DNA of 64,000 bases, taken from positions 62,001 through 126,000 of the forward strand of contig JAUXTT010000001.1 in NCBI GenBank assembly GCA_030684395.1. The letters run 5' to 3'. The first letter of the stretch is position 1; each line of letters begins with the position of its first letter. A program made the position numbers and the translations under genes. Shown here one piece after another: positions 11,115 through 34,183 of the stretch. Below the pieces are notes generated by a model that was not told the DNA's origin, did no database searches, and saw nothing but the letters and a program-made list of their open reading frames with translations. Source of the DNA: Bacteroidota bacterium (GTDB lineage Bacteria; Bacteroidota; Bacteroidia; B-17B0; Aurantibacillaceae).

Positions 11115-11141
11115 ATCTTCAAAATTTGCGTTCTATGATAC

Positions 11142-11176
11142 AAAACGGTGTCGGCTGAATACTCACCCTCCGTTTT
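11142..11176 (+). terminator. possible terminator after the ATPase gene
   Basis: AAAACGG (11142-11148) pairs with CCGTTTT (11170-11176), and GGTG/CACC pair inside. The loop is long and the T tract short, so this is a weak call. Confidence 0.35.
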
Positions 11177-11309: not shown

Positions 11310-13433
11310 TTGAGCACTACAAACCCAAAACAAGAAGCACTGCTTCAACTACTAAAAAGATACTCAAATCTCGATTTTTCGGAGAGGGTTACTGTTTCTG
11401 ACCCCAGCGACCCAATTGATCAGATAGCTTCTGAACTAAATAAGTTAGTGGATATTATTGAAGAAACCCGCGAAAAAGAAAAAAAACAATTCCAGGTTAT
11501 TGCCGCCAACCACGAGAGGTATTTAGATGTAGCGGAAAGTTTCGCCATATTTATTGTGCGTGTAGATAGTAATGCAAATATTGAATATGTGAGCAGAGTC
11601 GGGTCCGGGTTCAAATTGGAGGAAATTATTGGAACCTCCGTTTACAATTTTATCCATCCTGATTCTATATCTCTTTATAAACAAAAGCTACAGGACGTAT
11701 TAAATGACGGTTGCACCGTTAAATTTATAACGCAGGGATACAGAAGTGATAAAACAATGGGGTGGCACGATGTTAAGATATCACCCATAGCTGAAAATGG
11801 AAAAATCGTTTCCGCCGCAATAACATTTATCGATGTCACTGAACGCAAATTGATGGAGGAAAAATTCTCTTTTCAGGCTCAAATGGTTGACCTGATAGGA
11901 GATTACATTATTGCTTTTGACATGAACGATAAAATTGTATATTATAACAAAGCTGCTGAAAGATTATTTGGATATACACGGGATGAAGCTGCGGGTACAT
12001 CTGTTTGGGACTTGGTAAAAGAGGATAAAGTTATGGGTATTAAGGGAGATATTTTCAGACAACTTTCGGAACACGGGATCTGGAGAGGTGATGCCATTAT
12101 ACATTCTAAACACAATACTTATATTCCCGTAAACAGTTCGGCGGTTTATTATTTTGATGAAAACGGGCAACCTGCCGGAGTTATTGGTGTGGGAAGAGAT
12201 ATTTCAAAGCAAATTGAGCAGGAAAAAGAATTGATCTCGGCAAAAAAAGGTGCAGAAAAATCAGAAAAAATTCGCCAGCTGTTTGTTGCTAATATGAGTC
12301 ATGAAATAAGAACTCCATTGAATGCCATATTAGGATTTCAGGAATTATTAAGGGGAACTCCTCTCACAAAAGAGCAACAAGAATACGCAAACGCTATTGA
12401 TTTTGCCGGAAGAAATTTAATGGTTGTGATTAACGATGTGTTGGATCTTTCCAAAATAGAATCGGGTAAATTTGAATTTGATGAAACCGAGTTTGACCTT
12501 GCCCGGCTCGTTTATTCAGCTATTGAATTGATCGCATTTAGGGCTAAGGAAAAAAACCTGAAGATCAGCTTTTCCAACTCAAAAGAGATACCTGTGCATT
12601 TGATCGGAGACCCATCACGACTCAGTCAGATCTTATTGAACCTTTTGAGCAATAGTATAAAGTTTACTGAATCAGGAGGAATTACCATCAGTACTAACAT
12701 CGTTAAACAAACCAACACAAAAATTACCTGTAGTTTTAGTATTGAAGATACCGGCATAGGTATTCCGGAAGAACAACTCAACTCCATCTTTGAGCCTTTT
12801 ACGCAAGCCAATCCGGATACTACCCGTAAATATGGAGGCACTGGGCTTGGACTTACAATCGTAAAACAATTGGTACAATTGCAACACGGACAAATACAAG
12901 TGCAAAGTGAAATCGGTAAGGGAAGCGTTTTCTCATTTACATTAACATTTAAAAAGGCTCCTTTACATAAACAACAAGTACTTACTTTCTCAACCGATAC
13001 TATAGAAACACTTCCTTCCAATAAACAGCTTTCCATTTTACTTGCAGAAGATATATTGCTGAATCAACTATTGGTAAAAAAGATTATGGAAAAGTGGTCG
13101 TACCGATTGGATATAAGTAAAAACGGGAAAGAAGCTCTTGAAAAATTTAACTCCGGGAATTACGATATTATTTTGATGGATATTCAAATGCCGGAAATGG
13201 ATGGGTATACTGCTACTCAATACATCAGACAACATCCTGATCCTAAAAAAAATTCGGTACCTATTATTGCATTAACAGCGCATGCATCCAAACTGGAGGC
13301 GGAGCGTTGTATCACTTCGGGAATGAATGGGTTCATTGCAAAACCATTTGAATCAAAAGATCTTTTGGAGATGATCCTTAAACATACGAACCAATCTGCC
13401 GGACAGGAAGGTGCTGCAAACAATCATAAATAA
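11310..13433 (+). CDS. hybrid PAS histidine kinase with receiver
   Basis: A 707-residue cytoplasmic hybrid sensor kinase with no membrane segments. An N-terminal coiled coil (about residues 40-70) precedes two PAS domains (roughly 75-180 and 190-305). Then come HisKA with H331 in NMSHEIRTPLNA, a HATPase domain with NLLSNSIKF, DTGIGIP and GGTGLGLTIV, and a receiver domain with phospho-acceptor D624 in LMDIQMPEMDGY. I keep the TTG start at 11310 because no ATG occurs before the PAS region and a good promoter lies upstream. No separate response regulator gene is adjacent. The sensed signal is unknown but intracellular. Confidence 0.92.
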   Translation: MSTTNPKQEALLQLLKRYSNLDFSERVTVSDPSDPIDQIASELNKLVDIIEETREKEKKQFQVIAANHERYLDVAESFAIFIVRVDSNANIEYVSRVGSGFKLEEIIGTSVYNFIHPDSISLYKQKLQDVLNDGCTVKFITQGYRSDKTMGWHDVKISPIAENGKIVSAAITFIDVTERKLMEEKFSFQAQMVDLIGDYIIAFDMNDKIVYYNKAAERLFGYTRDEAAGTSVWDLVKEDKVMGIKGDIFRQLSEHGIWRGDAIIHSKHNTYIPVNSSAVYYFDENGQPAGVIGVGRDISKQIEQEKELISAKKGAEKSEKIRQLFVANMSHEIRTPLNAILGFQELLRGTPLTKEQQEYANAIDFAGRNLMVVINDVLDLSKIESGKFEFDETEFDLARLVYSAIELIAFRAKEKNLKISFSNSKEIPVHLIGDPSRLSQILLNLLSNSIKFTESGGITISTNIVKQTNTKITCSFSIEDTGIGIPEEQLNSIFEPFTQANPDTTRKYGGTGLGLTIVKQLVQLQHGQIQVQSEIGKGSVFSFTLTFKKAPLHKQQVLTFSTDTIETLPSNKQLSILLAEDILLNQLLVKKIMEKWSYRLDISKNGKEALEKFNSGNYDIILMDIQMPEMDGYTATQYIRQHPDPKKNSVPIIALTAHASKLEAERCITSGMNGFIAKPFESKDLLEMILKHTNQSAGQEGAANNHK

Positions 13434-17400: not shown

Positions 17401-20400
17401 GTGTTGAAGTGGATAAAAATACTTGTTGTACTTGTTTTGCTTTGCAATTTTGTGAAGGCACAAACAGGTTCCCAGCGCTTGCAGTATTTTAAATTAAAAA
17501 CCGATACCCTTTTTTTAGATTCATTAAGTTTAGTTCCCGGGTCTCTTTTTATTTCGTTAAACGGAAAGGCACTGGATAGTACATCCTATAAACTTGATCC
17601 AAAAAAGAAATTTCTCATCTTCAATAAAAAGAAATTGAATGCGGCTTCTTCAACAGATAGTATTCGCGTTTCTTATAAAGTGTTTCCGGTAAATTTTGAG
17701 AAGAATTATTTCAAAAAAGATATTGCATTATTAAACCGTGATCAAAGCTTAGCACAAAATCCCTTCACTATTCATTACAATGCGCAAACAGTTAATTCAC
17801 CCATTTTTCAAAATGATGGCTTAACAAAAAATGGAAGTGTATCGCGCGGAATAAGCTTTGGGAACAATCAGGATGTAGTAGTGAATTCGAACATGAACCT
17901 ACAGGTATCGGGTAAGTTGAGTAAAGAGCTCAATTTGGTACTTGCTGCTACTGATAATAACATTCCTATTCAGCCGGATGGGAACACACAGCAATTGCAG
18001 GAATTTGATAAAGTATTTATTCAGGTAAATAATGAAGATTCTAAAATTACGATGGGAGATTTTCAGTTGAGCCGACCACAAAGTTATTTCCTGAATTTTT
18101 ATAAACGTACGCAGGGTTTATTGTTTGAAAATACTTTTCTGATAGATTCATTAGATAAAAATAAACCCAAACTCTCAACACGCTTATCGGGTGCGATCTC
18201 TCGTGGGAAATTTGCAAGAAATGTAATTGTTGGGGTAGAAAATAATCAGGGACCTTATCGTTTAAAAGGAGCAGACAACGAATTGTTCATCATCGTTCTT
18301 TCGGGAACAGAAAAAGTATATATCGATGGAAAGCTGATCCAACGTGGGCAGGAGAACGAATATATTATTGATTACAATACATCTGAAATAACTTTTACTG
18401 CCAAACAAATTATTACAAAGGATAAACGGATCACTGTTGAGTTTCAATACTCGGAAAGAAATTACAATCGTTCGCTTTATTATGTTGGTGAAGAATACAC
18501 GAATAACAAACTGAAAATGGGATTCCATTTTTTTAGTGAACAGGATAATAAAAACAAGCCTTTTCAGCAGGAATTAAGTTTGGAAGAAAAATTATTATTA
18601 AGAAGCATTGGTGACACCCTAAATTTAGCCGTTACAGATGGAGCTCAAACAGCAGACTTTAACACCACAGAAGTTTTTTACAGAAAACAAGATACTCTAA
18701 CAGGCAGCGGAACATTTTCTATTTACAATTACTCAATCGCTCCAGATACTGCTTACCGAGTTCGTTTCAGTTACGTGGGTGAAGGCAATGGAGATTACAA
18801 ACAAATTCAAAGTTTAGCGAATGGGAAAGTGTATCAGTGGTACGAACCTGTTGGCGGAATACGACAAGGAAATTACGAACCTGTTATTGTTTTAGTAACA
18901 CCGAAGAAAAAACAAATGGCAATTGTGAATGGTGAATACTTATTGAACGCCCATTCGACAGGCTCAGGGCAGGGAAAAATAAGCTGGGAAGGAGCTTATA
19001 CAAAAAATGACATTAATACTTTTTCTCCATTTAATGCAAAAGATGATGAAGGTTTTGGAGGAAAATTTAATTTCAGCAATCAATTTAAAGTAGGAGAACG
19101 TGATTCGCTTAGTGAAACTAAAACAAAAATTCTCACCGGGTTATCCTACGAATATTTGCACAAAAATTTTTCGCAGATAGAACGTTTTCGTTCCGTTGAA
19201 TTTACCCGCGACTGGAACCGGAATTCGGACTCCGTAAAAAACATGCAGCACATTGGCGGTGCACAACTGGGATTTATGCATTCTAACAAAGCACGAACTT
19301 TATACACCTTTAATGGTTTTGTAGAAGAAGGAAACTACAGCGGTATGCGACACATATTGGAAAACAATTACAATTTAGGAAAATTAAAAATTCAGTTCAA
19401 CCCCACTTTCTTAAGTTCCAATAATTCTCAAAATAAAAACCTTACACAGTTTTACAGACACAAATCGAGGGTAACACAACAGATCAGAAATTTTCTACTT
19501 GCATATACCGATGAACTTGAAAACAACACCTTTAATTACGAAAACAAAGACTCCATACTTGCACGCAGTTACGGATTTTGGGAACGGGAAGGAAGTATTG
19601 AAAGTGCCGACTCTACAGGTAATTCCTACAAAGTATTTTACCGTGAACGTACTGATAAAAAAGCTACACGAAATATTCTTAAACCAGTTGCTTATGCACA
19701 AAACTATGGAGCAAGCGCAAACATCAACAGCATAAAAAATCATCCGATAAGAACTACTATCACTTACCGCCAGTTAAAAATTTTAGATTCTACTTTAATA
19801 AGTAATACTCCTGATAATACCTTGCTGAGTCGTTTAGAATATTCTCCACGTATTATGAAAGGTTTTATTCAGAGCAGTTTGTTTTATGAAATTGGTTATG
19901 GTTTAGAACAAAAGAAAGAATATTCATACGTGCAGGTAGCAGCGGGGCAGGGACAATATTACTGGAACGATTATAATAACAACGGCATTAAAGAATTAAA
20001 CGAATTTGAAATTGCGCAGTACAGCGATCAGGCCATTTTTATCAAGATCTTTACTCCCACCAATAACTACGTAAAAGCAGCGCACAACCAATTCAGCGGC
20101 AGCTTTTACTTACGTCCTTCTGTTTTTGTAAAACCTGAATCCAAGAAACTACTAAAAGCCATAGGAAGGTTTTCTACTCAAACAGTTTACCGAACCGACA
20201 ACAAATCACTGGAGAATGAAAACTCAATGATCTATAATCCTTTTGATACAAGAATCAACGACAGTTTATTAATTACCACCAATTCACTTTTCAGACAAGC
20301 ACTCTTTTTTAATCAGAATTCTTCGGTGGGTGGTTTTGATTATAATTATCAACAAAACAAAAGCAAACAGTTATTGGTAAACGGTTTGGAAAGCAGAGAA

Positions 20401-20925
20401 AACGAAATGCATGAATTGCGTACACGTTTTAATTTCACCAAATCATGGGGATTTTTTACTACGGCAAATTATGGTAACAAAAGAACCTACTCTGTTTACC
20501 TCTCCACACGTAACTACTTAATTAATTATTATGAAGTAGAACCCAAACTGGTATTTCAGCCCAACACTTCCTTCCGAATAGCTACCGGCTACAAACGCAG
20601 CGAAAAACAAAATGCAAAAGAATACGGAAATCAAAAAGCAACTATTGATGATATCCTTTTAGAAATTAAATACAACAAACTCAGCAAAGGAAGTTTTACT
20701 ATGCGTGCCGATTATTTAGTAATAGCCTACAACGATTCTCAAAACTCTCCCATCTCTTTTGAAATGCTCAATTCCCTAAAACCCGGACAAAACATTACCT
20801 GGACCATGCAGTACCAGCAAAACCTGAACCAGTACCTGCAAATAAGTTTTAATTATGACGGAAGAAAAACTCCTAATTCGAAGATCATACATATTGGCGG
20901 CGCTCAGGTGCGGGCGTTTTTTTAG
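17401..20925 (+). CDS. large putative outer-membrane protein, unknown function
   Basis: A 1174-residue protein that I do not recognise with confidence. A signal peptide (KWIKILVVLVLLCNFVKAQ) starts at GTG 17401 or TTG 17404. The N-terminal 130 residues look beta-rich. A central part is rich in segments such as GSVSRGISFGNNQDV and KLSKELNLVLAATDN, which recall the giant gliding/type IX translocon protein SprA. The second half is dominated by alternating strands with aromatic residues, and the chain ends in Phe, as outer-membrane barrels do. I infer a large outer-membrane beta barrel. It stands at the left edge of the accessory island. Confidence 0.7.
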   Translation: MLKWIKILVVLVLLCNFVKAQTGSQRLQYFKLKTDTLFLDSLSLVPGSLFISLNGKALDSTSYKLDPKKKFLIFNKKKLNAASSTDSIRVSYKVFPVNFEKNYFKKDIALLNRDQSLAQNPFTIHYNAQTVNSPIFQNDGLTKNGSVSRGISFGNNQDVVVNSNMNLQVSGKLSKELNLVLAATDNNIPIQPDGNTQQLQEFDKVFIQVNNEDSKITMGDFQLSRPQSYFLNFYKRTQGLLFENTFLIDSLDKNKPKLSTRLSGAISRGKFARNVIVGVENNQGPYRLKGADNELFIIVLSGTEKVYIDGKLIQRGQENEYIIDYNTSEITFTAKQIITKDKRITVEFQYSERNYNRSLYYVGEEYTNNKLKMGFHFFSEQDNKNKPFQQELSLEEKLLLRSIGDTLNLAVTDGAQTADFNTTEVFYRKQDTLTGSGTFSIYNYSIAPDTAYRVRFSYVGEGNGDYKQIQSLANGKVYQWYEPVGGIRQGNYEPVIVLVTPKKKQMAIVNGEYLLNAHSTGSGQGKISWEGAYTKNDINTFSPFNAKDDEGFGGKFNFSNQFKVGERDSLSETKTKILTGLSYEYLHKNFSQIERFRSVEFTRDWNRNSDSVKNMQHIGGAQLGFMHSNKARTLYTFNGFVEEGNYSGMRHILENNYNLGKLKIQFNPTFLSSNNSQNKNLTQFYRHKSRVTQQIRNFLLAYTDELENNTFNYENKDSILARSYGFWEREGSIESADSTGNSYKVFYRERTDKKATRNILKPVAYAQNYGASANINSIKNHPIRTTITYRQLKILDSTLISNTPDNTLLSRLEYSPRIMKGFIQSSLFYEIGYGLEQKKEYSYVQVAAGQGQYYWNDYNNNGIKELNEFEIAQYSDQAIFIKIFTPTNNYVKAAHNQFSGSFYLRPSVFVKPESKKLLKAIGRFSTQTVYRTDNKSLENENSMIYNPFDTRINDSLLITTNSLFRQALFFNQNSSVGGFDYNYQQNKSKQLLVNGLESRENEMHELRTRFNFTKSWGFFTTANYGNKRTYSVYLSTRNYLINYYEVEPKLVFQPNTSFRIATGYKRSEKQNAKEYGNQKATIDDILLEIKYNKLSKGSFTMRADYLVIAYNDSQNSPISFEMLNSLKPGQNITWTMQYQQNLNQYLQISFNYDGRKTPNSKIIHIGGAQVRAFF

Positions 20926-21098
20926 TTGGCAACTATAATTGGGGATTTTTGGTTTTGAGTGAATTTGAAATTCGCTCGGGTGAAAACTCCAGTATATTAA
21001 AATTTCCAACTTAGGCTAAATAAAAATCCTTGATTCGCGCAGAGTTACTTGTTAATCAACACGTTGCGCCCCGGCTCACTAAAACATGTTATTTTCCT

Positions 21099-21106
21099 TA
21101 TATTTG
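21099..21106 (+). promoter_or_regulatory. -7 promoter box of the methyltransferase locus
   Basis: TATATTTG, a perfect TAnnTTTG, lies 17 bases before ATG 21123. This supports that start over the in-frame start at 21030, which would lie upstream of the promoter. It is the only clear promoter before 28687, so the four following genes probably form one transcript. Confidence 0.6.
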
Positions 21107-21122
21107 TGTAAAACAAAATACT

Positions 21123-22274
21123 ATGCCTAAAACGGTGAATGTTAGTCGTATTAAGGAAGTGCAAAAACAAACTGAATTAGCAAATCAATTATCAAACTCC
21201 CAATTAAAAGCAGTTGACTTCTTTTGTGGTGCTGGAGGTGTAACTTGTGGCTTTAATAATATTGGAATTAAGGTTTTAGGTGGGATCGATATTTCCAATA
21301 AATTCAAAAAGACTTACGAGGAGAATAATCAAGCAGTTTTCATAAATGAAGATGTTTCAAATATGGAGGTAGAAAAGCTTGGGAAATTATTACCTATTTC
21401 AACAAATCAGGATGATTTGATTTTTGTTGGATGTAGCCCGTGCCAATATTACTCAAATTTAAAATCAGACAAAACAAAATCTAAAGCGGGGCGTTTGCTT
21501 TTAGACGACTTTAAAGACTTCGTGCTCCATTATAAACCAGGGTTTGTTTTTATCGAAAATGTTCCAGGACTGGAAACTAAGTCTGGTAGCCCCCTACACA
21601 GGTTTAAAAAAGAACTTAGCAAAGAAGGCTATGCGTTTGATCAAAACGTGTTGAATTCAAAATATTTCGGAGTTCCGCAAAGCAGAAGAAGGTTTGTGTT
21701 AATTGCTACACGTTTATTAGATAAAATTGACCTTCCGAAACAAACACGAAAAAAATCACAGGTTGTTACGGTAGAAAAGGCAATCGGAAACTATAAAGTT
21801 TTTCCGAAAGTAAGTATGGGTCACAAAGATCAATCCGATTTTCAACACTCAGTTGCGAGACTTTCCGATTTAAATCTTGAAAGAATAAAAGCAACGCCAA
21901 AGAATGGCGGAACAAGAAGAGCGTGGGCCAATAATAATAGACTTCAATTAGAATGCTATAAAGATCATGAGGGTCATTACGATGTTTACGGCAGATTGTT
22001 TTGGAATAAACCTGCACCAACAATAACTACTAGATTTATATACACTAGTACTGGCAGATATTCTCACCCAGAACAAAACCGCGCTTTATCATTAAGAGAA
22101 GGTGCAACACTTCAATCTTTTCCGCTAGACTACAAATTTCATTCTTCGAATCAAGGGGCAATTGCTACAATGATTGGCAACGCTGTCCCTCCCAAATTGG
22201 CTGAAGCTATAGGACTATCACTAAACTTACACTGGAATAAATGGCAAAATTTAAAGCAAGAGCAAGGGCTTTAG
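21123..22274 (+). CDS. DNA (cytosine-5-)-methyltransferase
   Basis: A 383-residue C5-cytosine methyltransferase with the conserved motifs in order: FFCGAGGVTCGF (motif I, AdoMet), SPCQYYS with nucleophile C107 (motif IV), ENVPGLE (motif VI), QSRRRFVLIATR (motif VIII), REGATLQSFP (motif IX) and GNAVPP (motif X). The target-recognition region between VIII and IX is about 110 residues, short to normal. ATG 21123 is used because a -7 box precedes it. The 3' end overlaps the next gene by 34 bases. In the context of a MORC-like ATPase and an OLD-like nuclease it probably marks self DNA. Confidence 0.93.
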   Translation: MPKTVNVSRIKEVQKQTELANQLSNSQLKAVDFFCGAGGVTCGFNNIGIKVLGGIDISNKFKKTYEENNQAVFINEDVSNMEVEKLGKLLPISTNQDDLIFVGCSPCQYYSNLKSDKTKSKAGRLLLDDFKDFVLHYKPGFVFIENVPGLETKSGSPLHRFKKELSKEGYAFDQNVLNSKYFGVPQSRRRFVLIATRLLDKIDLPKQTRKKSQVVTVEKAIGNYKVFPKVSMGHKDQSDFQHSVARLSDLNLERIKATPKNGGTRRAWANNNRLQLECYKDHEGHYDVYGRLFWNKPAPTITTRFIYTSTGRYSHPEQNRALSLREGATLQSFPLDYKFHSSNQGAIATMIGNAVPPKLAEAIGLSLNLHWNKWQNLKQEQGL

Positions 22275-25231
22275 ACCTCCTCGGAAGGCAACAAATAGCC
22301 GGAATTCCAACTGCAATCAATGAGTTATTTAAAAACGCTCATGATGCATACGCCGATAATGTTGAAATTGATTATTTCAGAAAGCAAAAACTCTTAGTTT
22401 TAAGAGATAATGGACTTGGAATGACTAAAAAGGATTTTGAATCCAGATGGTTAACTCTTGGCACTGAAAGCAAATTTACAAATAGGAAAACTCCTCCTCC
22501 ACCTAAAGACCCATCTAAACCAGAAAGACCCATGATGGGTGAAAAGGGTATTGGCAGGCTTGCAATAGCAAGCATTGGTAGTCAGGTTCTAATTCTTACC
22601 AAGGCTAAGAGAGAAAAAGAGAAGCATAAAATTGTGGCTGCTTTCATAAATTGGAATGTGTTTGAATTACCTGGCCTAGATTTAGATGACATAATTATTC
22701 CTATAAGGGAATTTGACGAGTTACCGACATCCTCTGACATAGAGGGAATGAAAAAAGAACTCAGCGATTCAATATCATTATTGCTAACTAAAGATGATAT
22801 CACAAAAGAAGAAGCTGCTTATCTAATAAAAAACATAAATGAATTTTCTATTTCACCCAAAGAAATTAATAATAAGCTAGTCGGAAATTTTGCATTTGAA
22901 AATAATGGAGGTACTCACTTTTACATTTCCCCAACAGAAGAAATTTTAAATAACAATATAGATTCAGAAAAAGATTCCTCCGACGCTACTAAAATAGAAA
23001 AAATGTTAGTTGGTTTTACTAACACAATGACTCCTGACCATCCTAAACCACTAGTTGAAATTGCGTTTCGCGATTATCGTAATGATGATGGCACCTACTA
23101 TAATATTCTTGATAAAGATAATTTTTTTGGTCCCGAAGACTTTGACCTAGCTGACCATCATTTTCAAGGTAAATTCGATGAATATGGTCAATTTGCCGGA
23201 ATAATTAAAATCTATCGAGAGAAAACATTTGATCATAAAATAAATTGGTCTGGAAATAATTATAAAGAAACTGACTGTGGATCCTTCGAAATTAATATAG
23301 CATATATTCAAGGTGCATTGAGGCAATCAATTATTGACGCTGAAAACTGGAATCGAATCAAAGCTAAAGGAGACAAATTTGGTGGTCTATATATTTACCG
23401 TGATAATATCAGAATTTTACCTTATGGCGACTCTAATTATGATTTTCTGGATGTCGAAAAAAATCGTTCCAAAAGCGCTGCATTCTATTTTTTCTCTTAC
23501 AGGAGAATGTTTGGAGTTATTGACATTTCAAAAAACAACAATTTTAAGTTAAAAGAAAAAGCGGGAAGGGAAGGCTTTATTGAGAATAAAGCATATAGAC
23601 AATTACAAGAAATATTAAAGAATTTTTTCGTTCAGTTAGCTGGTGATTTTTTTAGAGATGGCAATAGCACTAGTCCAAAAGCAGAATTTTGGACCCAAAA
23701 ACGAGCTGAACGAGAGTCATACTATAAAGCTTTAGAAAGAAGAGATCAACAATCAAAAGTTAGGAAAGAAAAATTTCAAGCTTCTTTAACTAGTTTTTTC
23801 AATGATTTAAGTTTAAAGAAACATGAGACGGAGATAAAAGAAATCTTAGAGGAAATTGATAAAAAATTTGGTTCCGTTGCGCATATTCAAGATCCCGATA
23901 AGGCAAGTCAAGCTTTGATTGACAACGAATTTGACGCTCGAAGACAAATCGAAGCTTATAGGCAAAAAATTAAGATTTCACAGCCAAAAGGTTTTACTAT
24001 TTCTAAAGATACCCGTTCAGATTACGAAGCCTATTTAACAGAAATGCAAAAATTAGAGTCGCAACTTTTCCAAAATGCAATTTTAGCAATTGACGCTCGA
24101 ATAGATGAATATACTTCCAAATTAAAAATTGAGATAAGCAAAAGAAAACGCCTTGAACAAGCGGTAGACTTCATTTCCGTTGAGGCAAAAAAAGTAGCTT
24201 CGAGTAAAGAAAAGGAAGCGAAAGAGGCCGTAACAGAAATAACTTCAAAAGTCAAAGACTTAACCAATGAACTTATGGTTGATCTGGATAATCAAATCAG
24301 GGATGTCAAAGATCGCTTCAAAAATCTGACTTTAGATTCCGCAAATGATTTTGATTTGGTTACTGAAAGACAGTCAATGGAAACTGATATAACTCGTGGA
24401 AAAGATAGAGTTACTCAAGTATTAGAACGTGTCATTTCCCAACTTCAATCAATCTATTGGGATAAAGATTCCAATAACGAATTCATAACCAACGATCAAA
24501 TTAACGATGCAATTTCGGAGGAGTTAGAAGAATTAAGAGAGAGGGTGCACGCAGATGTTGAATTGAGTCAATTAGGTTTAGCAGTAGGTGTTATTCATCA
24601 TGAATTTAATAGCACAATCAAATCAATTAGAGGCAGCATAAAAGATTTAAGAGCGTGGGCAGACGTCAATGAAAATTTAGATAGTGTATACAAGAACATT
24701 AAAATAAATTTTGAACATTTAGATGGATATTTAAACCTATTCACCCCACTTAATAGAAGGCTAAATAGGAAAAGAGAGAGTATCAACTCCTTGGAAATTA
24801 AAACTTTTCTAATTGATTTGTTTAGAACCAGATTAGAACGCCACAATATCAAATTTAAACATACCAAGGGATTCATTGACGAGAAGCTTTTCGGTTTTAG
24901 ATCAACATTCTATCCTGTATTTGTTAATATTATTGACAATGCTATTCATTGGTTAAACCAAACCTCAGAAGATCACGAAAAGATTATCCGACTTCACGCA
25001 GATCAAACTGGCTTCTATATTTCTAATAATGGCCTTGAAATTAAGAGTCAGGACAAAAACAAAATATTTGAGCTTGGATTTACGCGAAAAGCAAATGGCC
25101 GTGGAATGGGCCTTCACATTAGTAAGGAGGTATTAAATGCCGAGGAATATAATCTATTTTTAGATGCTCCTAGGCCGGAAAGTACAGTGACTTTCAAAAT
25201 TGAAAAGATTAAATCCTCGGGTGATGAATAA
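22241..25231 (+). CDS. MORC-like GHKL ATPase fused to histidine kinase core
   Basis: A 996-residue protein with two GHKL ATP-binding domains. The N-terminal one (residues 1-120) resembles MORC/MutL/HSP90 ATPases: NELFKNAHDAYA (N box), DNGLGM (G1), GEKGIGRLAIASIG (G2). A long middle part is partly helical, with strongly charged coiled coil around 490-780. The C-terminal 210 residues look like a sensor kinase core: an H box GVIHHEFNSTIKSIRGS (H786/H787), the N box NIIDNAIHW, and the lid motifs IFELGFTR and GRGMGLHIS. Prokaryotic MORC relatives (paraMORCs) are known from restriction-modification loci. Overlaps on both sides show translational coupling. Phosphotransfer to the next gene product is inferred. 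Confidence 0.85.
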   Translation: MAKFKARARALDLLGRQQIAGIPTAINELFKNAHDAYADNVEIDYFRKQKLLVLRDNGLGMTKKDFESRWLTLGTESKFTNRKTPPPPKDPSKPERPMMGEKGIGRLAIASIGSQVLILTKAKREKEKHKIVAAFINWNVFELPGLDLDDIIIPIREFDELPTSSDIEGMKKELSDSISLLLTKDDITKEEAAYLIKNINEFSISPKEINNKLVGNFAFENNGGTHFYISPTEEILNNNIDSEKDSSDATKIEKMLVGFTNTMTPDHPKPLVEIAFRDYRNDDGTYYNILDKDNFFGPEDFDLADHHFQGKFDEYGQFAGIIKIYREKTFDHKINWSGNNYKETDCGSFEINIAYIQGALRQSIIDAENWNRIKAKGDKFGGLYIYRDNIRILPYGDSNYDFLDVEKNRSKSAAFYFFSYRRMFGVIDISKNNNFKLKEKAGREGFIENKAYRQLQEILKNFFVQLAGDFFRDGNSTSPKAEFWTQKRAERESYYKALERRDQQSKVRKEKFQASLTSFFNDLSLKKHETEIKEILEEIDKKFGSVAHIQDPDKASQALIDNEFDARRQIEAYRQKIKISQPKGFTISKDTRSDYEAYLTEMQKLESQLFQNAILAIDARIDEYTSKLKIEISKRKRLEQAVDFISVEAKKVASSKEKEAKEAVTEITSKVKDLTNELMVDLDNQIRDVKDRFKNLTLDSANDFDLVTERQSMETDITRGKDRVTQVLERVISQLQSIYWDKDSNNEFITNDQINDAISEELEELRERVHADVELSQLGLAVGVIHHEFNSTIKSIRGSIKDLRAWADVNENLDSVYKNIKINFEHLDGYLNLFTPLNRRLNRKRESINSLEIKTFLIDLFRTRLERHNIKFKHTKGFIDEKLFGFRSTFYPVFVNIIDNAIHWLNQTSEDHEKIIRLHADQTGFYISNNGLEIKSQDKNKIFELGFTRKANGRGMGLHISKEVLNAEEYNLFLDAPRPESTVTFKIEKIKSSGDE

Positions 25232-26867
25232 TTCTTTTTTTGACACTTCTAAGTCGGTCGCAAATGACTTTTTACAGAGCATCGTATTTATTGATGACCG
25301 GGCCTATCCAGATCCAGACCAAAAGGAGCGACTTCATGAAAACAACTATCATGAATTTGATGCATTAAAAATTACTCAAGCATTTGCAAAAAGTCAAAAA
25401 ATATGCGCTGTTTATAAACCCAGAACAATAGAAGACATTAATGATTTAACAGTTTTAGTTAAAAAAGCTGACATTACAGTAATTGACTGGCAAATCAATA
25501 TAACTTCGGAAACATCAATAGAAAATAAGGAGGAAGATGCTGAAGAAGATGATCCTAGAGGCTCACATACACGAAAAATAATTCGAGGGATTTTGTCCGA
25601 CCCTCTCACTGGTAAGGGAAGTTTAAAATTAATTTTAGTCTATACGGGCGACACAGATCTTTATAATATAACAAAAGAAATATTTGACGATTTAACCACC
25701 CAAAACATTGAAGGTCTTCAAATTGGCGACTGCAAGGTCTTTACTCCAAACGTGAAAATACTGATAGTCGCAAAAGCATCGACAGATGACGAAAACGGAA
25801 ACAAATTCAAACATAATAGTGAATTAAAATCAAAAATTATAAAATATGAGAATTTACCCGAGTTCATTTTGACTGAGTTTTCAGAAATGACAAGTGGTTT
25901 ATTGTCTAACTTTGTACTCCAGGCGTTAACTGTTTTAAGAAACAACACATTCCGTTTAGTAAAACTATACAATAAAGATCTTGATCCTTCTTTTGTTCAT
26001 CATCGTCTGCTACTGCCCAATCAGGAAGATTCAAAAGAACAGTTAATTGAAATTCTTTCTAGTTCTGTACAAGCACTCCTTAATTACAATCAAGTTGGAA
26101 ATAGTGTCTCAATACAAAACATTAAATCATGGATTGATAAAAACACTTTTAAAGAGAGTTTACCTCTTTTTAAAAACAACAACATTATTCTTGATAACGA
26201 ATTCCTTAAATCTTGGAGTATTGACGGGATAGATAAGGCTATAACTGATTATTGGGGAACAAAGAATTTCGGTGAAATGAGTAAAAGTGTGATCCCCAAC
26301 TTTCAGACTATTTTTCACAAAAAAGGATCTTCCCTCTTAATGGACGGAAAAGAGAGCAATAAGCAGGACAGTGAATTTTCTATTTTAACTCATCATAAAA
26401 GCAATCTAAAACAGCCATCAAACATTCCAAAACTTTCCTTAGGAACAATTGTAAAACAAGATAGCAAAGGCGATAGCGGATATTTTTTATGCATTCAAGC
26501 AAAATGTGATAGTACAAGAGTGCTTTCCGAAAGAAAATTCCTCTTTTTACCTCTTAAAATTTCCGAAGAAGATAAAAAATTTCATTTAGTTATTGAAGAG
26601 AACAAGGTGTTTAAAAGACTGCAAGTCGTAAAAGATGCGTTTGAAATAAGAACTATCAAATTTAAACCGGAAGCCGGAAGTGAAAATATTATTGCAAGTA
26701 CTCGAGATAATAGTTTCTTTTTTATATCCACACACAATGAAAAACTCGATTGGATTTGCGATTTAAAGGATGCACATGCACAAAGAATTGCTAACACTTA
26801 CGCCTATCAATTATCCAGAATAGGATTAGATGAATCCGAATGGTTAAGACGTTGGGCAGGAAACTAA
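25224..26867 (+). CDS. receiver-domain protein of the methylase/MORC locus
   Basis: A 547-residue protein starting at ATG 25224, which overlaps the previous stop by eight bases; a TTG at 25200 would add eight residues and is less likely. Residues 15-175 form a response-receiver domain with the acidic pair D24-D25 (IVFIDDRAY), acceptor D88 (TVIDWQI), T141 (LVYTGD) and K171 (CKVF), so all canonical positions are kept. A Glu/Asp-rich insert follows the acceptor strand. The remaining 370 residues match nothing I recognise, and no helix-turn-helix is evident. It is probably the phospho-acceptor partner of the kinase upstream and an adaptor or effector for the ATPase downstream. Confidence 0.82.
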   Translation: MNNSFFDTSKSVANDFLQSIVFIDDRAYPDPDQKERLHENNYHEFDALKITQAFAKSQKICAVYKPRTIEDINDLTVLVKKADITVIDWQINITSETSIENKEEDAEEDDPRGSHTRKIIRGILSDPLTGKGSLKLILVYTGDTDLYNITKEIFDDLTTQNIEGLQIGDCKVFTPNVKILIVAKASTDDENGNKFKHNSELKSKIIKYENLPEFILTEFSEMTSGLLSNFVLQALTVLRNNTFRLVKLYNKDLDPSFVHHRLLLPNQEDSKEQLIEILSSSVQALLNYNQVGNSVSIQNIKSWIDKNTFKESLPLFKNNNIILDNEFLKSWSIDGIDKAITDYWGTKNFGEMSKSVIPNFQTIFHKKGSSLLMDGKESNKQDSEFSILTHHKSNLKQPSNIPKLSLGTIVKQDSKGDSGYFLCIQAKCDSTRVLSERKFLFLPLKISEEDKKFHLVIEENKVFKRLQVVKDAFEIRTIKFKPEAGSENIIASTRDNSFFFISTHNEKLDWICDLKDAHAQRIANTYAYQLSRIGLDESEWLRRWAGN

Positions 26868-26874
26868 AAGCCTT

Positions 26875-28686
26875 ATGAATACAGAATTACCAGAGCTAGT
26901 TGCTACTATCAAAAAAATAAAGCTAGGGAAGCAATTTCAAAAATATATTGATTTCATTCGATTTCCCTACTACAGAAATCTCGAAATTGACACCAAAATT
27001 AATTTCGATTTTCCTTTAACGGTATTCATAGGGCAAAATGGTTGCGGAAAGAGTTCATGTTTACATGCATTATATGGCGCTCCCAAAAGCCGTACGCCAT
27101 TTGATTTTTGGTTCGATACTAATGTTGATCCAATAGCATATTACAATGATGAGAAAAAAAGACATTCTTTTTGGTATTCATTTAAAGGTGAAAAAAATGT
27201 AATACGGGAAGTTATAAAAGCCAGAATAAAAAGGGGAGATGATCCTAATTATTGGGAAACAAGCAGGCCTTTAACTTGGGCTGGAATGAAAATGCGAAAT
27301 GATGGTAAACGAGATAAGCCAATAGCTAAAAATGTTGTTTATATAGATTTTCGAGCCGAATTGAGCGCTTTTGATAAATTCTTCTATTTTGGTAATGTTA
27401 AGGGCATTTCTTCAAAAAACAAACAGGAATTTATCCGAAGGAAGTCGGTCCAATTAAACAATGTTTTGTCTGGCAAAGTAAAGCAGTATGATACTTCGAC
27501 AAATGTTGTAAATAAAAAACTTAGAAAAATAACTACTAAAGAACTTGGTGCTATTTCCTTTATCATAGGTAAAAACTATACATCTGGAAACTTTCTTGAA
27601 CACTCGTTTTTTAGAAACGATGGGTACTCCGTTGTTTTTAATACATCTCACGCGAAATATTCAGAAGCTTTTGCCGGCAGTGGAGAGGTGGCAGTGGTAC
27701 GATTGGTTATGCGCGTTATGGATGCCCCTGATTATTCTTTAATTCTACTGGATGAACCGGAAGTTTCTTTACATCCGGGTGCTCAAAACAGGTTGAAATT
27801 ATTTCTATTAGATCAAATTAAACAAAAAAAACATCAAGTTGTTCTGACTAGTCATTCCCCATCTATTGTAAAAGGCTTACCAAAAGAAGCCATTAAAGTT
27901 TTTTATCAAAATCCTAATAACGGAAGATTTATTGTAAAAGAAAATTTGACTCCCGAAGAAGCCTTTTATCATATTGAATATCCCATTAATGAGAGAAAAA
28001 ATATTATTGTAGAGGATATTCTGGCACAAGAAATTATTGCTGGTGTATTAGATAAAATGGGAAAAGAGACAAAGAATTTATTTACTATTAAATTCAATCC
28101 AGGAGGTGAGTCTGTTGTAAAAAAGGAGTTTATTACAGTTTTCTGTCGAGAGTCCAATTCGAAAGATTTTGTTTTTTTTGATGGAGATCAGAAAGTGATT
28201 TTCCCACATTATGATTGGAGAAGCTTCCCTACTTCCTCACTGAATCTGAAGACTCTTACCGAAAAAATCAAAGAACAAACCAAAGGAGAAACAATAGAGT
28301 TCTCGGTTGATGGAGGTGCTCAAGGTGGTAATGAAAAGCAAAAGATAGATTTATTAAAAAAATACTTAGATTATTACTCTAGTAATGTTTTTTATATACC
28401 AAGCCTACTTCCCGAAGATCTCATTTGGGATCCTATTTATGCACATAATCAAATAAAATTAACCATTCATGATTCTGAAGTATCTTCCAAATACATAAGT
28501 GATTTGGGAATAAATGAGCCGATAAAAAAGAAATTTGTCTTCATTTCGGAAATATTGTTTGGCAGCAGTGAAGCTGATAAAGTTTTAAGTACACAAAGGC
28601 TATTTATCAGAAATTGGTTAAATTCTGAAAATGCAGATTATCTATACATAAAGTCTTTAATCGAGTCTATTATTTCTAACGCTTAA
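26875..28686 (+). CDS. OLD-like ATPase with TOPRIM domain
   Basis: A 603-residue protein. The first 350 residues form an ABC-type ATPase: Walker A GQNGCGKSS (53-61), a signature-like GSGEVAVVRLVMRV, Walker B LILLDEPEVSLHPG (D293) and the H loop VVLTSHSPSIV. The C-terminal part has a TOPRIM arrangement, with E380 in NIIVEDILAQE and D436-x-D438 in FFDGDQK. This is the architecture of OLD-family nucleases. It follows the receiver gene by seven bases and is the last gene of the locus. A DNA or RNA nuclease effector is the natural reading, though activity depends on residues not tested here. Confidence 0.85.
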   Translation: MNTELPELVATIKKIKLGKQFQKYIDFIRFPYYRNLEIDTKINFDFPLTVFIGQNGCGKSSCLHALYGAPKSRTPFDFWFDTNVDPIAYYNDEKKRHSFWYSFKGEKNVIREVIKARIKRGDDPNYWETSRPLTWAGMKMRNDGKRDKPIAKNVVYIDFRAELSAFDKFFYFGNVKGISSKNKQEFIRRKSVQLNNVLSGKVKQYDTSTNVVNKKLRKITTKELGAISFIIGKNYTSGNFLEHSFFRNDGYSVVFNTSHAKYSEAFAGSGEVAVVRLVMRVMDAPDYSLILLDEPEVSLHPGAQNRLKLFLLDQIKQKKHQVVLTSHSPSIVKGLPKEAIKVFYQNPNNGRFIVKENLTPEEAFYHIEYPINERKNIIVEDILAQEIIAGVLDKMGKETKNLFTIKFNPGGESVVKKEFITVFCRESNSKDFVFFDGDQKVIFPHYDWRSFPTSSLNLKTLTEKIKEQTKGETIEFSVDGGAQGGNEKQKIDLLKKYLDYYSSNVFYIPSLLPEDLIWDPIYAHNQIKLTIHDSEVSSKYISDLGINEPIKKKFVFISEILFGSSEADKVLSTQRLFIRNWLNSENADYLYIKSLIESIISNA

Positions 28687-28695
28687 TATTTGTAG

Positions 28696-28887
28696 GTTCC
28701 AGTAGCCTTGTTAAACGCAAACTACATTACTCCCAATCTTAATTTTGAAATCATTCTCCATTTGTATCCTTCGTTCAACTCGCATTTTCCCGAAACGGTA
28801 ATTGCCTTTTATATGGAAGAGGCGGACACCAAGCAATACACCGCTGCTTATTCCTCAGTACAAGCTTTTCCCATCATCGCAATTTAA
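28696..28887 (+). pseudogene. C-terminal remnant of an unidentified gene
   Basis: An open frame of 63 codons without a start codon of its own runs from a TAG at 28693 to TAA 28885, directly before the mfd-like duplicate. The encoded end has a normal amino-acid composition (YITPNLNFEIILHLYPSF and a later YTAAYSSVQAFPIIAI). It could be the tail of a gene that preceded mfd in a donor genome. I do not recognise the family. Confidence 0.35.
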
Positions 28888-29033
28888 TCCTATCTTTGTA
28901 TTCTCTTTTTAAATAACCGTTTTGGTTAATGTGCTAGAAAAAATCCATTTCGGAGGAAAGATCCCGCCGATCTCGTATCAAAAAATATTATTTGGATGGC
29001 ATAAAAAGTTCAGCACTCGCCTTTTATTCGGGA
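28884..29033 (+). pseudogene. diverged copy of mfd promoter and 5' end
   Basis: By hand alignment this 150-base stretch matches 30771-30923, the promoter and first ~35 codons of mfd, with about 13 substitutions and one two-base gap. The -7 box TATCTTTG (28891-28898), leader and start region are conserved. The gap falls in the run of A after codon 21 and shifts the frame, so the copy could only make a short peptide. Most coding differences are at third positions, which suggests divergence as a working gene before truncation. It marks an old recombination junction. Confidence 0.85.
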
Positions 29034-29325
29034 GTAACTCTCCGCTTATCTTCTTTCTTCGATGAGCATTTTACTGAAACGGGAATTGATGTGGAAGCGT
29101 GTATCGTATCTGTCCTTATAATAAAAGCTATGGTAGTTTAACGCTGCCCTTGTAACGAATCAGATCCACTTTGATCCCAATCAACGTACATTATATTGAT
29201 ATTCAAATAATTACCATTAATTTCGGAATCATAAAATAGATTATTAACTTTACGGTATTAAACAACAAACCCAATCCTTTATTTTTCGTTTAAGTACTTA
29301 AGGTAATTCATCATAAATTGTTTTC
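29034..29325. other. intergenic stretch with a possible gene remnant
   Basis: No complete gene is visible. A start-less open frame of 32 codons (29043-29141) encodes a plausible C-terminal peptide (LSSFFDEHFTETGIDVEA and onwards), perhaps another remnant. The distal part holds the probable promoter of the next gene. Confidence 0.3.
29245..29252 (+). promoter_or_regulatory. possible -7 box for the PIN module
   Basis: TAACTTTA, a TAnnTTTG-like box, lies 73 bases before the GTG start of the next gene. Weak support. Confidence 0.35.
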
Positions 29326-30279
29326 GTGGCTAATAAGGCAATACATACTATCAGTTTAAAGAATTTTGAATTTGCTAATGGCGAAATTCCTTTCTCTGTA
29401 TTGTCAAAAATTACTGAACAATTACGGAAAGTTTCAGAAGGCGCTTTAAGGTTATACATTGAAGGACGTAGCAGTAACAAGAGAGGAAGAGATCCTGAAT
29501 GGGTTGAGAAATCTTTAGATTTTACGCTATCTGGCATAAAAAAAGGCTCAACAATTTTAGAAGTTAAAGCTCCATATCTTACAGAAACACTAGGCAATTA
29601 CCAACAACCTCTTTATGATGAATTGGGATTAGATAGTTTAACAAATCAAACAGCCATAGGCTTGGCCATTGCAGCATACGAAAAAGCAACAGAAAACCCC
29701 GATAGTATAGATACATTAGATAAAAACCTACTTAAAATTATGTTAGGTTTTAATAAGTTTTTTGGACACGACACTAAAGCTTCTATTAATATTAACGGAA
29801 CTTTAAAACAGAAAATTAAAATTGCTCCAAATACTCTTCAAAAAATTAAAATCTTAGAAGAAAAAACTCCTGCCGACCAAAAAATTAAAATCACCGGAAA
29901 GCTGGAAATGATGAAACACTCAAGTAATTTATTAGAGTTAGTTAACGAAAACGGAAAATTTAAAGCGCACCTAAGTCACGATTATTCTTTTGAAAAAGCT
30001 TTACCTTTTTTCGGCAAAGAAATAACATGCGCAGGGCTGGCACATTTTAATCCGAAAGGTCAAATATCTTCTATAGAAATCAATAATATTACTGCCGCTG
30101 ATAAATCAGCCTCTTACTTTACAAATACAAGCTTTGCCATTCAGGAAAAATTAGACTTAACTGAATTAGCTGTAAAACAAAGCTACAAAGGAACAACTTC
30201 CGCAAAAATCAATATGCTTATAAAGGAAATTGATGTTGATGATGATTTAGAAACATTATTACAAACTCTTACAGCATAG
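29326..30279 (+). CDS. unknown 317-aa partner of a PIN toxin
   Basis: A 317-residue protein starting at GTG 29326. I do not recognise a family. It lacks a signal peptide and membrane segments. The first third is mixed helix/strand (TISLKNFEFANGEIP). A central part is rich in Lys/Ile strands (KIKIAPNTLQKIKILEEK). The end is acidic (EIDVDDDLETLLQTL). The gene precedes a PIN-domain gene by only 11 bases, so by position it would be the antitoxin. It is much larger than VapB-type antitoxins and shows no obvious DNA-binding motif. A repressor, a carrier or an RNA-linked partner are all open. Confidence 0.75.
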   Translation: MANKAIHTISLKNFEFANGEIPFSVLSKITEQLRKVSEGALRLYIEGRSSNKRGRDPEWVEKSLDFTLSGIKKGSTILEVKAPYLTETLGNYQQPLYDELGLDSLTNQTAIGLAIAAYEKATENPDSIDTLDKNLLKIMLGFNKFFGHDTKASININGTLKQKIKIAPNTLQKIKILEEKTPADQKIKITGKLEMMKHSSNLLELVNENGKFKAHLSHDYSFEKALPFFGKEITCAGLAHFNPKGQISSIEINNITAADKSASYFTNTSFAIQEKLDLTELAVKQSYKGTTSAKINMLIKEIDVDDDLETLLQTLTA

Positions 30280-30290
30280 TTGACACGCCA

Positions 30291-30746
30291 ATGAATATTG
30301 TTTTTGATACTAATGTTATTCTATACTATTTAACAAAGCACACAATTGTAGAAAAAATAGAGGAACAACTCAAGCCATTTGATAATAAAAACTTTTCTAT
30401 AATTTCTGTTGTTACAGAAGCTGAATTGTTATCATTAGCTATGCAAAGAGATTGGGGCATTAAAAAAACAGAAAACCTAAATAAGTTTTTAGAACAATTT
30501 TTAAAAGTTCCAATTCAGTCAAATGATTTAATCGAGATGTACGCATCTATAGACAACTACAGTCAGGGCAAAAGTAAAACGCATAAATATCCAAAAGGTT
30601 TTACTGCAAAAAACATGGGAAAGAATGATCTTTGGATTGCAGCAACCGCAGTTGTAACAAACTCTACAATTCTAACAAACGACAATGATTTTGAGCATTT
30701 AAATGGCGTTTTTACTTCGGTGTTTTCACTCAAAAATTTAAAATAG
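30291..30746 (+). CDS. PIN-domain (VapC-like) ribonuclease
   Basis: A 151-residue PIN-domain protein with the acidic active-site set: D6 in VFDTNVILYY, E43/E45 in VVTEAELLSLA, D113 in KNDLWIAATA, and D131/D133 in TNDNDF. This set coordinates divalent metal in VapC-type RNases. Length is slightly above the usual 130-140. It is cotranscribed with the 317-residue protein upstream and stops 25 bases before the duplicated mfd promoter segment. It probably acts as the toxin of a toxin-antitoxin or defence pair; the RNA target cannot be predicted. Confidence 0.85.
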   Translation: MNIVFDTNVILYYLTKHTIVEKIEEQLKPFDNKNFSIISVVTEAELLSLAMQRDWGIKKTENLNKFLEQFLKVPIQSNDLIEMYASIDNYSQGKSKTHKYPKGFTAKNMGKNDLWIAATAVVTNSTILTNDNDFEHLNGVFTSVFSLKNLK

Positions 30747-30770
30747 TCTGCACTATTTATTACAGGTAAA

Positions 30771-30923
30771 TTAATCCTATCTTTGCCTCCTCTTTTTAAA
30801 TAACCGTTTTGGTTAATGTGTTAGAAAAGATTCATTTCGGGGCTAAGATTCCGCCGATCTCGGATCAAAAAAAATATTATTTGGATGGCATAAAAGGTTC
30901 TGCACTCGCCTTTTATTCGGGAA
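30771..30923 (+). repeat. mfd 5' segment matching the upstream copy
   Basis: Intact partner of the diverged copy at 28884-29033. The match starts at TTAATCCTATCTTTG, just after the PIN gene, and ends within codon 38 of mfd. It holds the -7 box TATCTTTG at 30778-30785. Together the two copies bracket the PIN module as imperfect direct repeats. Confidence 0.85.
30778..30785 (+). promoter_or_regulatory. -7 promoter box of mfd
   Basis: TATCTTTG, an exact TAnnTTTG, lies 24 bases before the TTG start. It is conserved in the diverged copy at 28891-28898, where neighbouring bases differ, which supports function. Confidence 0.65.
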
Positions 30924-33900
30924 GCTTATTTTCAAAAATTTCGAAAAGCCAGTTATTTATTTGTAACGACAGGGAGCAAGCCATTTATTTATACAATGAT
31001 CTTCAGAACATTGTAGAGGAAAATAAGGTTTTCTTTTTCCTTGCTTCCTACAAACGGCCTTATGAAGAAGAGCGCACTGCGAATGCTAATATACAGGAAC
31101 GTTCGGAGGTATTGAACCACGTTTCCAAAACACATTCGCCCTTTATAGTGGTTACTTTTCCGGAAGCATTATTTGAAAAAGTAATTACCAAACAAACCCT
31201 TCAAAAAAATACATTTGAAGTAAAAGTGGGAGAAAAACTTTCCATCGAATTCATCTCCGAGTTTTTACAATCCTTTAATTTCGAACTACAGGATTTTGTT
31301 TACGAACCGGGGCAGTTTGCTATTCGTGGTGGGATTATTGACGTATTTTCCTTTGCAAGTGATTTTCCTTTTCGTATAGAATTGTTTGGCGATGAAGTAG
31401 AATCTATAAGAACATTTGATTCTACAAGTCAGCTCTCCGAAAAAAAATACGACCGCATCCAAATTGTTCCCAATGTAAATGCATCGGCATTGCTTGAGAA
31501 CAAGCAAAATTTTGTGCAGTATCTTGGTGAAGACACCATTGTGTTCATTGAAGATTCTTCCTTATTGGAAAGTAAGCTGGATACACTCTATTCAAAAGCA
31601 GAAGACACTTATCTTTCTTTGCGCGACACTGTTCAAAAAGAGCCGGAAGACCTTTACTGTACAGGTAAAGACTTAGTCGCTGATCTGGAAAACAATATCT
31701 GGTTTGAGTTTGGAACGCGGGTAACACACAAGGACCTCATCATCACTTTTGCTCAAAGCCAACAACCGATCTTTAATAAGAACTTCGACATGTTGCTTGC
31801 CAACCTGATCGAGAACAAACAAAAAGGTTTTACCAATTACCTTTTTACCGACACACAAAAACAGGCGGAACGTTTACAGCAGATCTTTGAAGATATTCAG
31901 AAAGAAAAATCACTTCCTGAAAAATTAATTGAACCTATCTATTTAGGAATTCACGAAGGTTTTATTGATTTTGAACAAAAAATTGCAGCTTATACCGATC
32001 ACCAGATCTTTGAACGTTATCATAAGTTCAGAGTAAAAAGCACAGGGCATAAAAAAGCCGAAGCGCTTACCATTAAAGAACTCTACGGCTTAAGTCCGGG
32101 AGATTTTGTGGTACATATTGATCACGGTATTGGACGTTATGCCGGTTTAGAAAAAATAGATGTGAACGGAAAACCACAGGAAGCCGTTAAACTTATTTAC
32201 AAAGACAACGATATTTTATATGTGAGTATTCACTCCCTGCACCGTGTGGCAAAATACACCGGTAAGGAAGGACAGGCTCCGCGTATTGATAAAATCGGTT
32301 CTACTGTTTGGCAAACGCTTAAACAAAAAACCAAACGCAGGGTTAAAGAACTTGCTTTCGACTTAATTAAACTCTACGCAAAACGTAAAACGCTTAAGGG
32401 ATTCCGTTTTAATAAAGACACTTATTTACAACACGAGCTGGAAGCATCTTTTATTTATGAAGATACTCCCGATCAATACAAAGCAACCAACGATGTAAAA
32501 AGGGACATGGAAAAACCAAACCCAATGGACAGATTGGTTTGCGGCGATGTTGGTTTCGGTAAAACAGAAGTTGCTATCAGGGCTGCATTCAAAGCGGTGA
32601 ACGATAGTAAGCAGGTTGCCGTTTTGGTTCCCACCACTATTTTAGCATTACAACATTATAAAACATTCAGCGACCGTTTAAGTGATTTTCCTTGTAATGT
32701 TGAATACATCAATCGTTTTAAAACAGCGAAAGAACAAAAAGCAATTTTTGAAAAACTGGCAAAAGGTGAAATTGACATTCTGATAGGTACACATAAAATT
32801 GCAAGCAAGGATGTAAAGTTTAAAGACCTTGGTTTATTGATCATTGATGAAGAACAAAAATTTGGAGTAGCAGTAAAGGAAAAACTGAAAACCATAAAAG
32901 CAAATGTGGATTCACTAACACTTACTGCAACACCTATTCCACGTACTTTGCAATTTTCTTTATTGGGCGCACGTGATCTTTCTGTTATTTCTACTCCGCC
33001 GCCCAATCGTTATCCGGTACAAACCGAATTACATCCTTTTAATGAAGAATTAATTCGTGATGCAATCACCTTTGAAATAAAAAGAGGCGGGCAAATTTTC
33101 TTTATTCATAACAAAGTTCAGAACATCCAGGAAATGGCAGGTATTCTGCAGCGTTTGGTTCCTGATGCGCGAATTTGTGTTGGTCACGGACAAATGGATG
33201 GTGACAAGCTGGAAGATGTGATGATGAATTTTATTGAAGGTCGTTACGATATTTTAATTGCAACCACCATCATCGAATCGGGATTAGATATTCCGAATGC
33301 AAACACCATCATCATTAATGATGCACAAAATTTCGGATTAAGCGATTTACATCAAATGCGCGGACGTGTAGGAAGAAGTAATAAAAAATCATTCTGCTAT
33401 CTACTGGTTCCTTCCCTCCTTATCTTAACCAACGATGCACGTAAACGTTTAAAAGCCATCACTGAATTTTCTGATCTGGGAAGTGGTTTCCAAATTTCCA
33501 TGCGTGACCTTGATATACGTGGCGCAGGTGATCTATTGGGTGGAGAACAAAGCGGTTTCATTAACGATATGGGTTTTGAAACCTATATGAAAATATTAAG
33601 CGAAGCCATTGACGAATTAAAAGACGAAGACTGGTACAAGGAACAAGGCATTGAAGAAAGTGACAGCAAACAGCATTCACTTTCTACTTTCTCTAAAACA
33701 TTTGTAAAAGAAACACAGATCGAAGCCGACTTTGAGTGGCTCATCCCTGATTCGTATGTAAGTAATATAACGGAGCGTTTAAATTTGTACCGTGAACTCG
33801 ATAATATTTCCAAAGAAATAAACCTGATCCAATTTGAAGAGAATTTAAAAGACCGTTTTGGCCCATTGCCGAAACAGGTACATGAACTGGTTTCTGCAAT

Positions 33901-34183
33901 GCGGATGCGTTGGCAGGCAATGCGAATTGGTTTCGAAAAACTCATTTTGAAGAATGGAAGAATGTTGGGGTATTTTTTGAGCAAACCGGATTCTGAATAC
34001 TACAACTCACCTATGTTTAAAGCTGTATTAAGTTACGCCCAACAATATCCTAATTTATGCTCGTTGAAAGAACAAAATAATAAGTTCTATATTAGTATTC
34101 AAAATGTGAAGTCGGTTAAAGATGTGATTGGCATTTTTAATTATGTAGAAGAACTGGAAAGAAAGATAGCGACGAAAGGTTAA
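30809..34183 (+). CDS. mfd: transcription-repair coupling factor
   Basis: A 1124-residue Mfd, the SF2 translocase that displaces RNA polymerase stalled at lesions and recruits the UvrABC repair system. In order: the UvrB-like N-terminal module (to about 330), the CarD-like polymerase-interacting domain with LSPGDFVVHIDHGIGRYAGL (about 430-500), the helicase core with GDVGFGKT (579-586) and LLIIDEEQKFG, the translocase motif HQMRGRVGRS, and the C-terminal TRCF domain. Start is TTG 30809; GTG 30818 is an alternative. Both are present in the duplicated segment upstream. This is backbone sequence and marks the right boundary of the island. Confidence 0.96.
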   Translation: MVNVLEKIHFGAKIPPISDQKKYYLDGIKGSALAFYSGSLFSKISKSQLFICNDREQAIYLYNDLQNIVEENKVFFFLASYKRPYEEERTANANIQERSEVLNHVSKTHSPFIVVTFPEALFEKVITKQTLQKNTFEVKVGEKLSIEFISEFLQSFNFELQDFVYEPGQFAIRGGIIDVFSFASDFPFRIELFGDEVESIRTFDSTSQLSEKKYDRIQIVPNVNASALLENKQNFVQYLGEDTIVFIEDSSLLESKLDTLYSKAEDTYLSLRDTVQKEPEDLYCTGKDLVADLENNIWFEFGTRVTHKDLIITFAQSQQPIFNKNFDMLLANLIENKQKGFTNYLFTDTQKQAERLQQIFEDIQKEKSLPEKLIEPIYLGIHEGFIDFEQKIAAYTDHQIFERYHKFRVKSTGHKKAEALTIKELYGLSPGDFVVHIDHGIGRYAGLEKIDVNGKPQEAVKLIYKDNDILYVSIHSLHRVAKYTGKEGQAPRIDKIGSTVWQTLKQKTKRRVKELAFDLIKLYAKRKTLKGFRFNKDTYLQHELEASFIYEDTPDQYKATNDVKRDMEKPNPMDRLVCGDVGFGKTEVAIRAAFKAVNDSKQVAVLVPTTILALQHYKTFSDRLSDFPCNVEYINRFKTAKEQKAIFEKLAKGEIDILIGTHKIASKDVKFKDLGLLIIDEEQKFGVAVKEKLKTIKANVDSLTLTATPIPRTLQFSLLGARDLSVISTPPPNRYPVQTELHPFNEELIRDAITFEIKRGGQIFFIHNKVQNIQEMAGILQRLVPDARICVGHGQMDGDKLEDVMMNFIEGRYDILIATTIIESGLDIPNANTIIINDAQNFGLSDLHQMRGRVGRSNKKSFCYLLVPSLLILTNDARKRLKAITEFSDLGSGFQISMRDLDIRGAGDLLGGEQSGFINDMGFETYMKILSEAIDELKDEDWYKEQGIEESDSKQHSLSTFSKTFVKETQIEADFEWLIPDSYVSNITERLNLYRELDNISKEINLIQFEENLKDRFGPLPKQVHELVSAMRMRWQAMRIGFEKLILKNGRMLGYFLSKPDSEYYNSPMFKAVLSYAQQYPNLCSLKEQNNKFYISIQNVKSVKDVIGIFNYVEELERKIATKG

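Follow-up and report, generated by a model that had tools for sequence, protein, structure and literature searches.

A truncated second start of mfd and its resident counterpart bracket an ORF1-PIN cassette in a Bacteroidota genome

The mfd locus and its direct repeats

The window examined here, a stretch of 64,000 nucleotides from the 44-contig draft genome of a Bacteroidota bacterium, contains an intact mfd gene, a partial second copy of its start and a small cassette lying between the two. The features of the locus are, from left to right:

17401–20925, plus strand: conserved gene left of the island, located in the congener G001 on another contig (C3) than mfd (C16)
21030–28686, plus strand: defence-like island outside the repeats, comprising a C5 methyltransferase, a HEF_HK/HATPase protein, a Response_reg_2 protein and an AAA ATPase
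28735–28878, minus strand: OMP-A, decayed 3′ end of a beta-barrel gene different from OMP-B, directly left of F (80% to C43:116996-117056, E 6.3e-8)
28881–29033, plus strand: F, truncated and decayed second mfd start, comprising promoter and codons 1–38 (TTG at 28922; box TATCTTTG at about 28891–28898)
29034–30767, no strand: insert of 1.73 kb between the direct repeats F and R
29044–29141, minus strand: OMP-B, decayed 3′ end of an outer-membrane beta-barrel gene (reading NYHSFYYKDRYDTRFHINSRFSKMLIEERR, then stop; E 1.7e-4 to a homologous 3′ end on contig C43; 802-aa homologue in G001)
29326–30279, plus strand: ORF1, 317 aa, partner of the PIN gene (weak match to the PADLOC phage-defence candidate PDC-M32A, E 1.9e-8)
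30291–30746, plus strand: PIN-domain, VapC-like protein, 151 aa (PF01850, E 1.8e-13; VapC models below cut-off)
30768–30922, plus strand: R, promoter and 5′ end of the resident mfd, the counterpart of F
30809–34183, plus strand: mfd, transcription-repair coupling factor, intact, 1124 aa (TIGR00580, 974 bits; Pfam TRCF, CarD_TRCF_RID, DEAD)

Self-BLAST of the window aligns F with R at 89.7% identity over 155 columns (E 7.6e-53), far above chance, with 14 substitutions and a single 2-nt gap at which a run of eight A in R is shortened to six in F. A whole-genome search returned F and R as the only two places and no third copy. Both analyses agree with the preliminary description of this DNA, which had reported a second, diverged mfd start 1.9 kb upstream of the gene, in its coordinates as well as in its count of differences. 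F lies upstream of R at a spacing of 1887–1889 nt and in the same orientation, and the shared sequence spans the promoter box, which is also found 5′ of mfd in G001, the TTG start and 38 codons. The two A lost within the A run break the reading frame of F while resident mfd stays open, and exactly one insert lies between the two repeats.

Within this insert, ORF1 and the PIN gene form a small toxin-antitoxin-like pair. ORF1 is rare, with any match in only 4 of 395 genomes of the class, the present one included. The pair is conserved in two distant genomes, G070 (L102:6079-7474) and G314 (L103:6025-7415), where it lies within a type I restriction-modification operon and within an operon of methyltransferase and helicase genes with type III character, respectively, both operon types being read from the protein sequences and not from a family search.

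F is flanked on both sides by remnants of outer-membrane beta-barrel genes, namely decayed 3′ ends on the minus strand, which the preliminary description did not mention. Such debris on either side implies several rearrangements, so that the patch as a whole may have taken more than one event. We rejected a tandem duplication in which an OMP end plus an mfd start formed the unit, as OMP-A and OMP-B are alike only locally (a 23-bp DNA match), whereas the identity between F and R is 90%. Beside the right end of F, mfd and OMP-B match each other at 9 of 10 positions (GCTTATYTTC), a level reached by 1.4% of random pairs, which hints at microhomology joining at the F/OMP-B junction. A third short decayed 3′ end of this kind is present at C43:116972-117094; all three are intergenic, and two of them flank F.

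The order from left to right is the island, OMP-A, F and then the insert. Hence, the repeats bracket the 1.7-kb ORF1-PIN cassette and not the 8-kb methyltransferase/ATPase island, whose import they had initially been taken to mark. No complete PADLOC system was matched by the four island genes. Since the conserved gene at 17401–20925 and mfd are on separate contigs in G001, the interval from this gene up to mfd is a synteny breakpoint. The mfd gene of G001 is single-copy and has no insert, and its upstream neighbourhood differs and is not syntenic. About 60 other mfd loci were scanned and none carries a duplicate of the mfd 5′ end upstream of the gene, which speaks against a family-wide duplication hotspot at this position.

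Divergence of the two copies

The nearest mfd among the sampled genomes is that of G001, with 86% amino acid identity over the gene. At the mfd 5′ end, R and F share 77% and 75% of their nucleotides with G001, respectively, and 91% with each other. Such mutual closeness among mfd genes had been named beforehand as the sign of a local duplication; here it is measured against the only sampled congener with mfd, the sampling having no congeners in the 85–95% range. No mfd was found in G002 (66% complete), and a search of viral contigs for a donor mfd returned nothing. In a tree, F groups with R with a support of only 0.28 on 114 nt, and no sampled congener is closer than G001. The branch lengths are 0.082 for F and 0.015 for R. 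When polarised against G001, the changes on F comprise two nonsynonymous ones (GAT>TAT and GGT>AGT), the frameshift and synonymous changes, and those on R two synonymous ones, which are expected under any model. Judged by these sequences, F evolves faster than R. The neutral distance to G001 amounts to about 1.0–1.4 substitutions per site, and that between F and R is put at roughly 0.16–0.3 by the fitted models. As the latter is far smaller, the event postdates the split from G001 by a wide margin.

The preliminary description regarded F as a real mfd before its truncation, left behind when homologous recombination brought in DNA of a related species that comprised the upstream island and that species' mfd start. 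In a mirrored version, F would be the old start of the recipient and R would have come with the cassette. We regard import in either form as possible, but as the less likely explanation. The coding differences are mostly synonymous, as had been claimed, although this holds as a raw count (7 synonymous versus 3 nonsynonymous, Nei-Gojobori). A codon likelihood model in which F was functional for some time before truncation outperforms local duplication with immediate truncation (2dlnL 3.9; bootstrap P 0.025 for the coding part alone). When the leader with its 4 differences in 31–39 sites is included, 2dlnL falls to 1.7–2.4. Hence, the codon data weakly favour a divergence as functional gene before truncation, and this part of the earlier claim is supported to that degree. 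Import would also account for homology that sets in directly at the promoter box, since two genomes with different upstream genes should show this, and dprA is present, which is compatible with DNA uptake though nearly universal. Against it stands that F and R are each other's nearest relatives across all sampled genomes. Of the earlier interpretation, the recombination scar flanking a gene insertion is supported; an origin of F in another species is possible but less likely.

Similar repeats elsewhere in the genome

A scan for direct repeats within 20 kb, covering 1.25 Mb (26%) of the genome, reveals four further repeats that are two-copy in the scanned part and bracket single genes (98–215 bp, 83–98% identical). 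Their genes were named by sequence inspection and not by family search:

C7:11592-11806 / 12780-12994: 215 bp, 91%; truncated DUF1801-like 5′ end, KilA-N-like gene, full gene (locus C7:11443-12994, L194)
C43:43175-43281 / 43688-43792: 107 bp, 83%; phhA-like (phenylalanine-4-hydroxylase-like) 3′ end around a DUF4870-like gene (locus C43:42567-43792, L200)
C35:10602-10699 / 11073-11170: 98 bp, 98%; around a GIY-YIG-like nuclease gene (L191)
C7:16635-16737 / 18655-18761: 107 bp, 85%; around a 473-aa gene

The repeats at C26:20311 and C37:139512 are dispersed and were left out of this count. In G001, 0.4 Mb scanned as a control yielded no comparable repeat, a sample too small to claim a difference. 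Two of the four repeats are partial copies of the flanking gene, and the order at the DUF1801/KilA-N locus is identical to that of F, insert and full gene at mfd. These two gene-fragment loci likewise come without an empty site in the congener. Their ratios of synonymous to nonsynonymous differences, 8:10 and 7:9, fit a duplication after which one copy would have decayed. Over three cases, mfd and the two coding repeats, the assumption that both copies were always functional is rejected (joint P 3e-4); compared with pure duplication followed by decay, the joint excess is mild (P 0.027). Since the two coding repeats fit ordinary duplication and decay, they weaken an explanation by species crossing and count against import at mfd.

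Origin of the repeats and comparison with known systems

We consider it probable, on balance, that F and R are the direct repeats left by the insertion of a cassette with a long target duplication just upstream of the mfd promoter. We observe the repeat structure, its uniqueness in the genome, a left copy in decay and further loci of the same architecture; the insertion itself is deduced from them, as the sampled congener lacks a syntenic empty site. The cassette, consisting of the OMP-B remnant, ORF1 and the PIN gene, would have entered immediately upstream of the mfd promoter as incoming DNA in which it adjoined a piece of an mfd start. This piece would have recombined with the resident mfd start. 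One crossover could have sufficed, or else a crossover would have joined one end while the other end was joined illegitimately. Either way, mfd would stay intact with a promoter, and the truncated start F would be left to decay. The route was probably a homology-assisted single crossover. The incoming mfd piece may have diverged beforehand, as in a related strain or species, or have been identical at first and diverged later, an almost even choice that tilts slightly towards the latter. A Ku gene was looked for and not found, which speaks against Ku-dependent end joining.

Alternatively, the 155 bp could have been duplicated purely locally, with the cassette inserted later and independently between the copies. 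With about 0.08 neutral substitutions per site, a clock-like fit accounts tolerably for the changes in F, R and the leader, but the later insertion would have had to hit the exact repeat boundary and the recurrent succession of repeat, gene and repeat points to one joint event, so that we deem this course of events unlikely. An assembly chimera joining the mfd region of a second strain is conceivable for a draft in 44 contigs whose 2-nt loss falls in an A run; it is nevertheless highly improbable, given that scars of the same architecture exist elsewhere in the genome and that F carries nonsynonymous changes too. Least credible of all are attL and attR sites of an integrative element targeting the mfd 5′ end: the direct repeats at both insert ends and the restored gene start would be in line with them, but neither the 1.7-kb insert nor the gene set from 21030 to 30746 includes an integrase, the differences are scattered through the repeat instead of sparing a single identical core, and no relative among the approximately 60 loci has an mfd 5′ duplicate.

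Small defence-like cassettes that lack any recombinase are often flanked by core genes. How and when they arrived can be read from long target duplications in decay, and the mfd case and its four sister repeats make an integrase-free route testable by strain comparison. As a speculative extension, which we hold with considerable doubt, this lineage may repeatedly gain small accessory genes (PIN pairs, KilA-N, GIY-YIG, DUF4870) without an integrase, each duplicating a target of 100–215 bp and leaving datable, decaying gene-end scars genome-wide, in part with alleles from related strains.

For restriction-modification genes, insertion with long target duplications, variable in length and in the order of 100 bp, has been reported (PMC3874152; also PMC3031569), the original reports being those of Nobusato et al. 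2000 and Furuta et al. 2010 as cited in these two papers. The mfd locus resembles these insertions in that a cassette lies between direct repeats of the host target in the order of 100 bp (155 columns around 1.73 kb, two copies in the genome) with no integrase or IS. It is further linked to them by its gene pair, which lies in restriction-modification operons elsewhere, and by its position at a synteny breakpoint. In contrast to the published cases, which stem from close genomes with an empty site, the insertion at mfd is deduced without one, its repeats differ by about 10%, and the insert is no restriction-modification system but holds ORF1-PIN only, with neither a methyltransferase nor a restriction gene. 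In E. coli, single-crossover integration of a re-circularised fragment led to partial target duplications of 109–950 bp (PMC3240628). Homology-facilitated illegitimate recombination or single-crossover integration of this type would yield partial locus duplications of that size beside foreign DNA. Classical homology-facilitated illegitimate recombination mostly gives deletions and not duplications, unlike the mfd locus; the two are alike in the short shared sequence near one junction of the insert, a resemblance in mechanism that is read from the product only.
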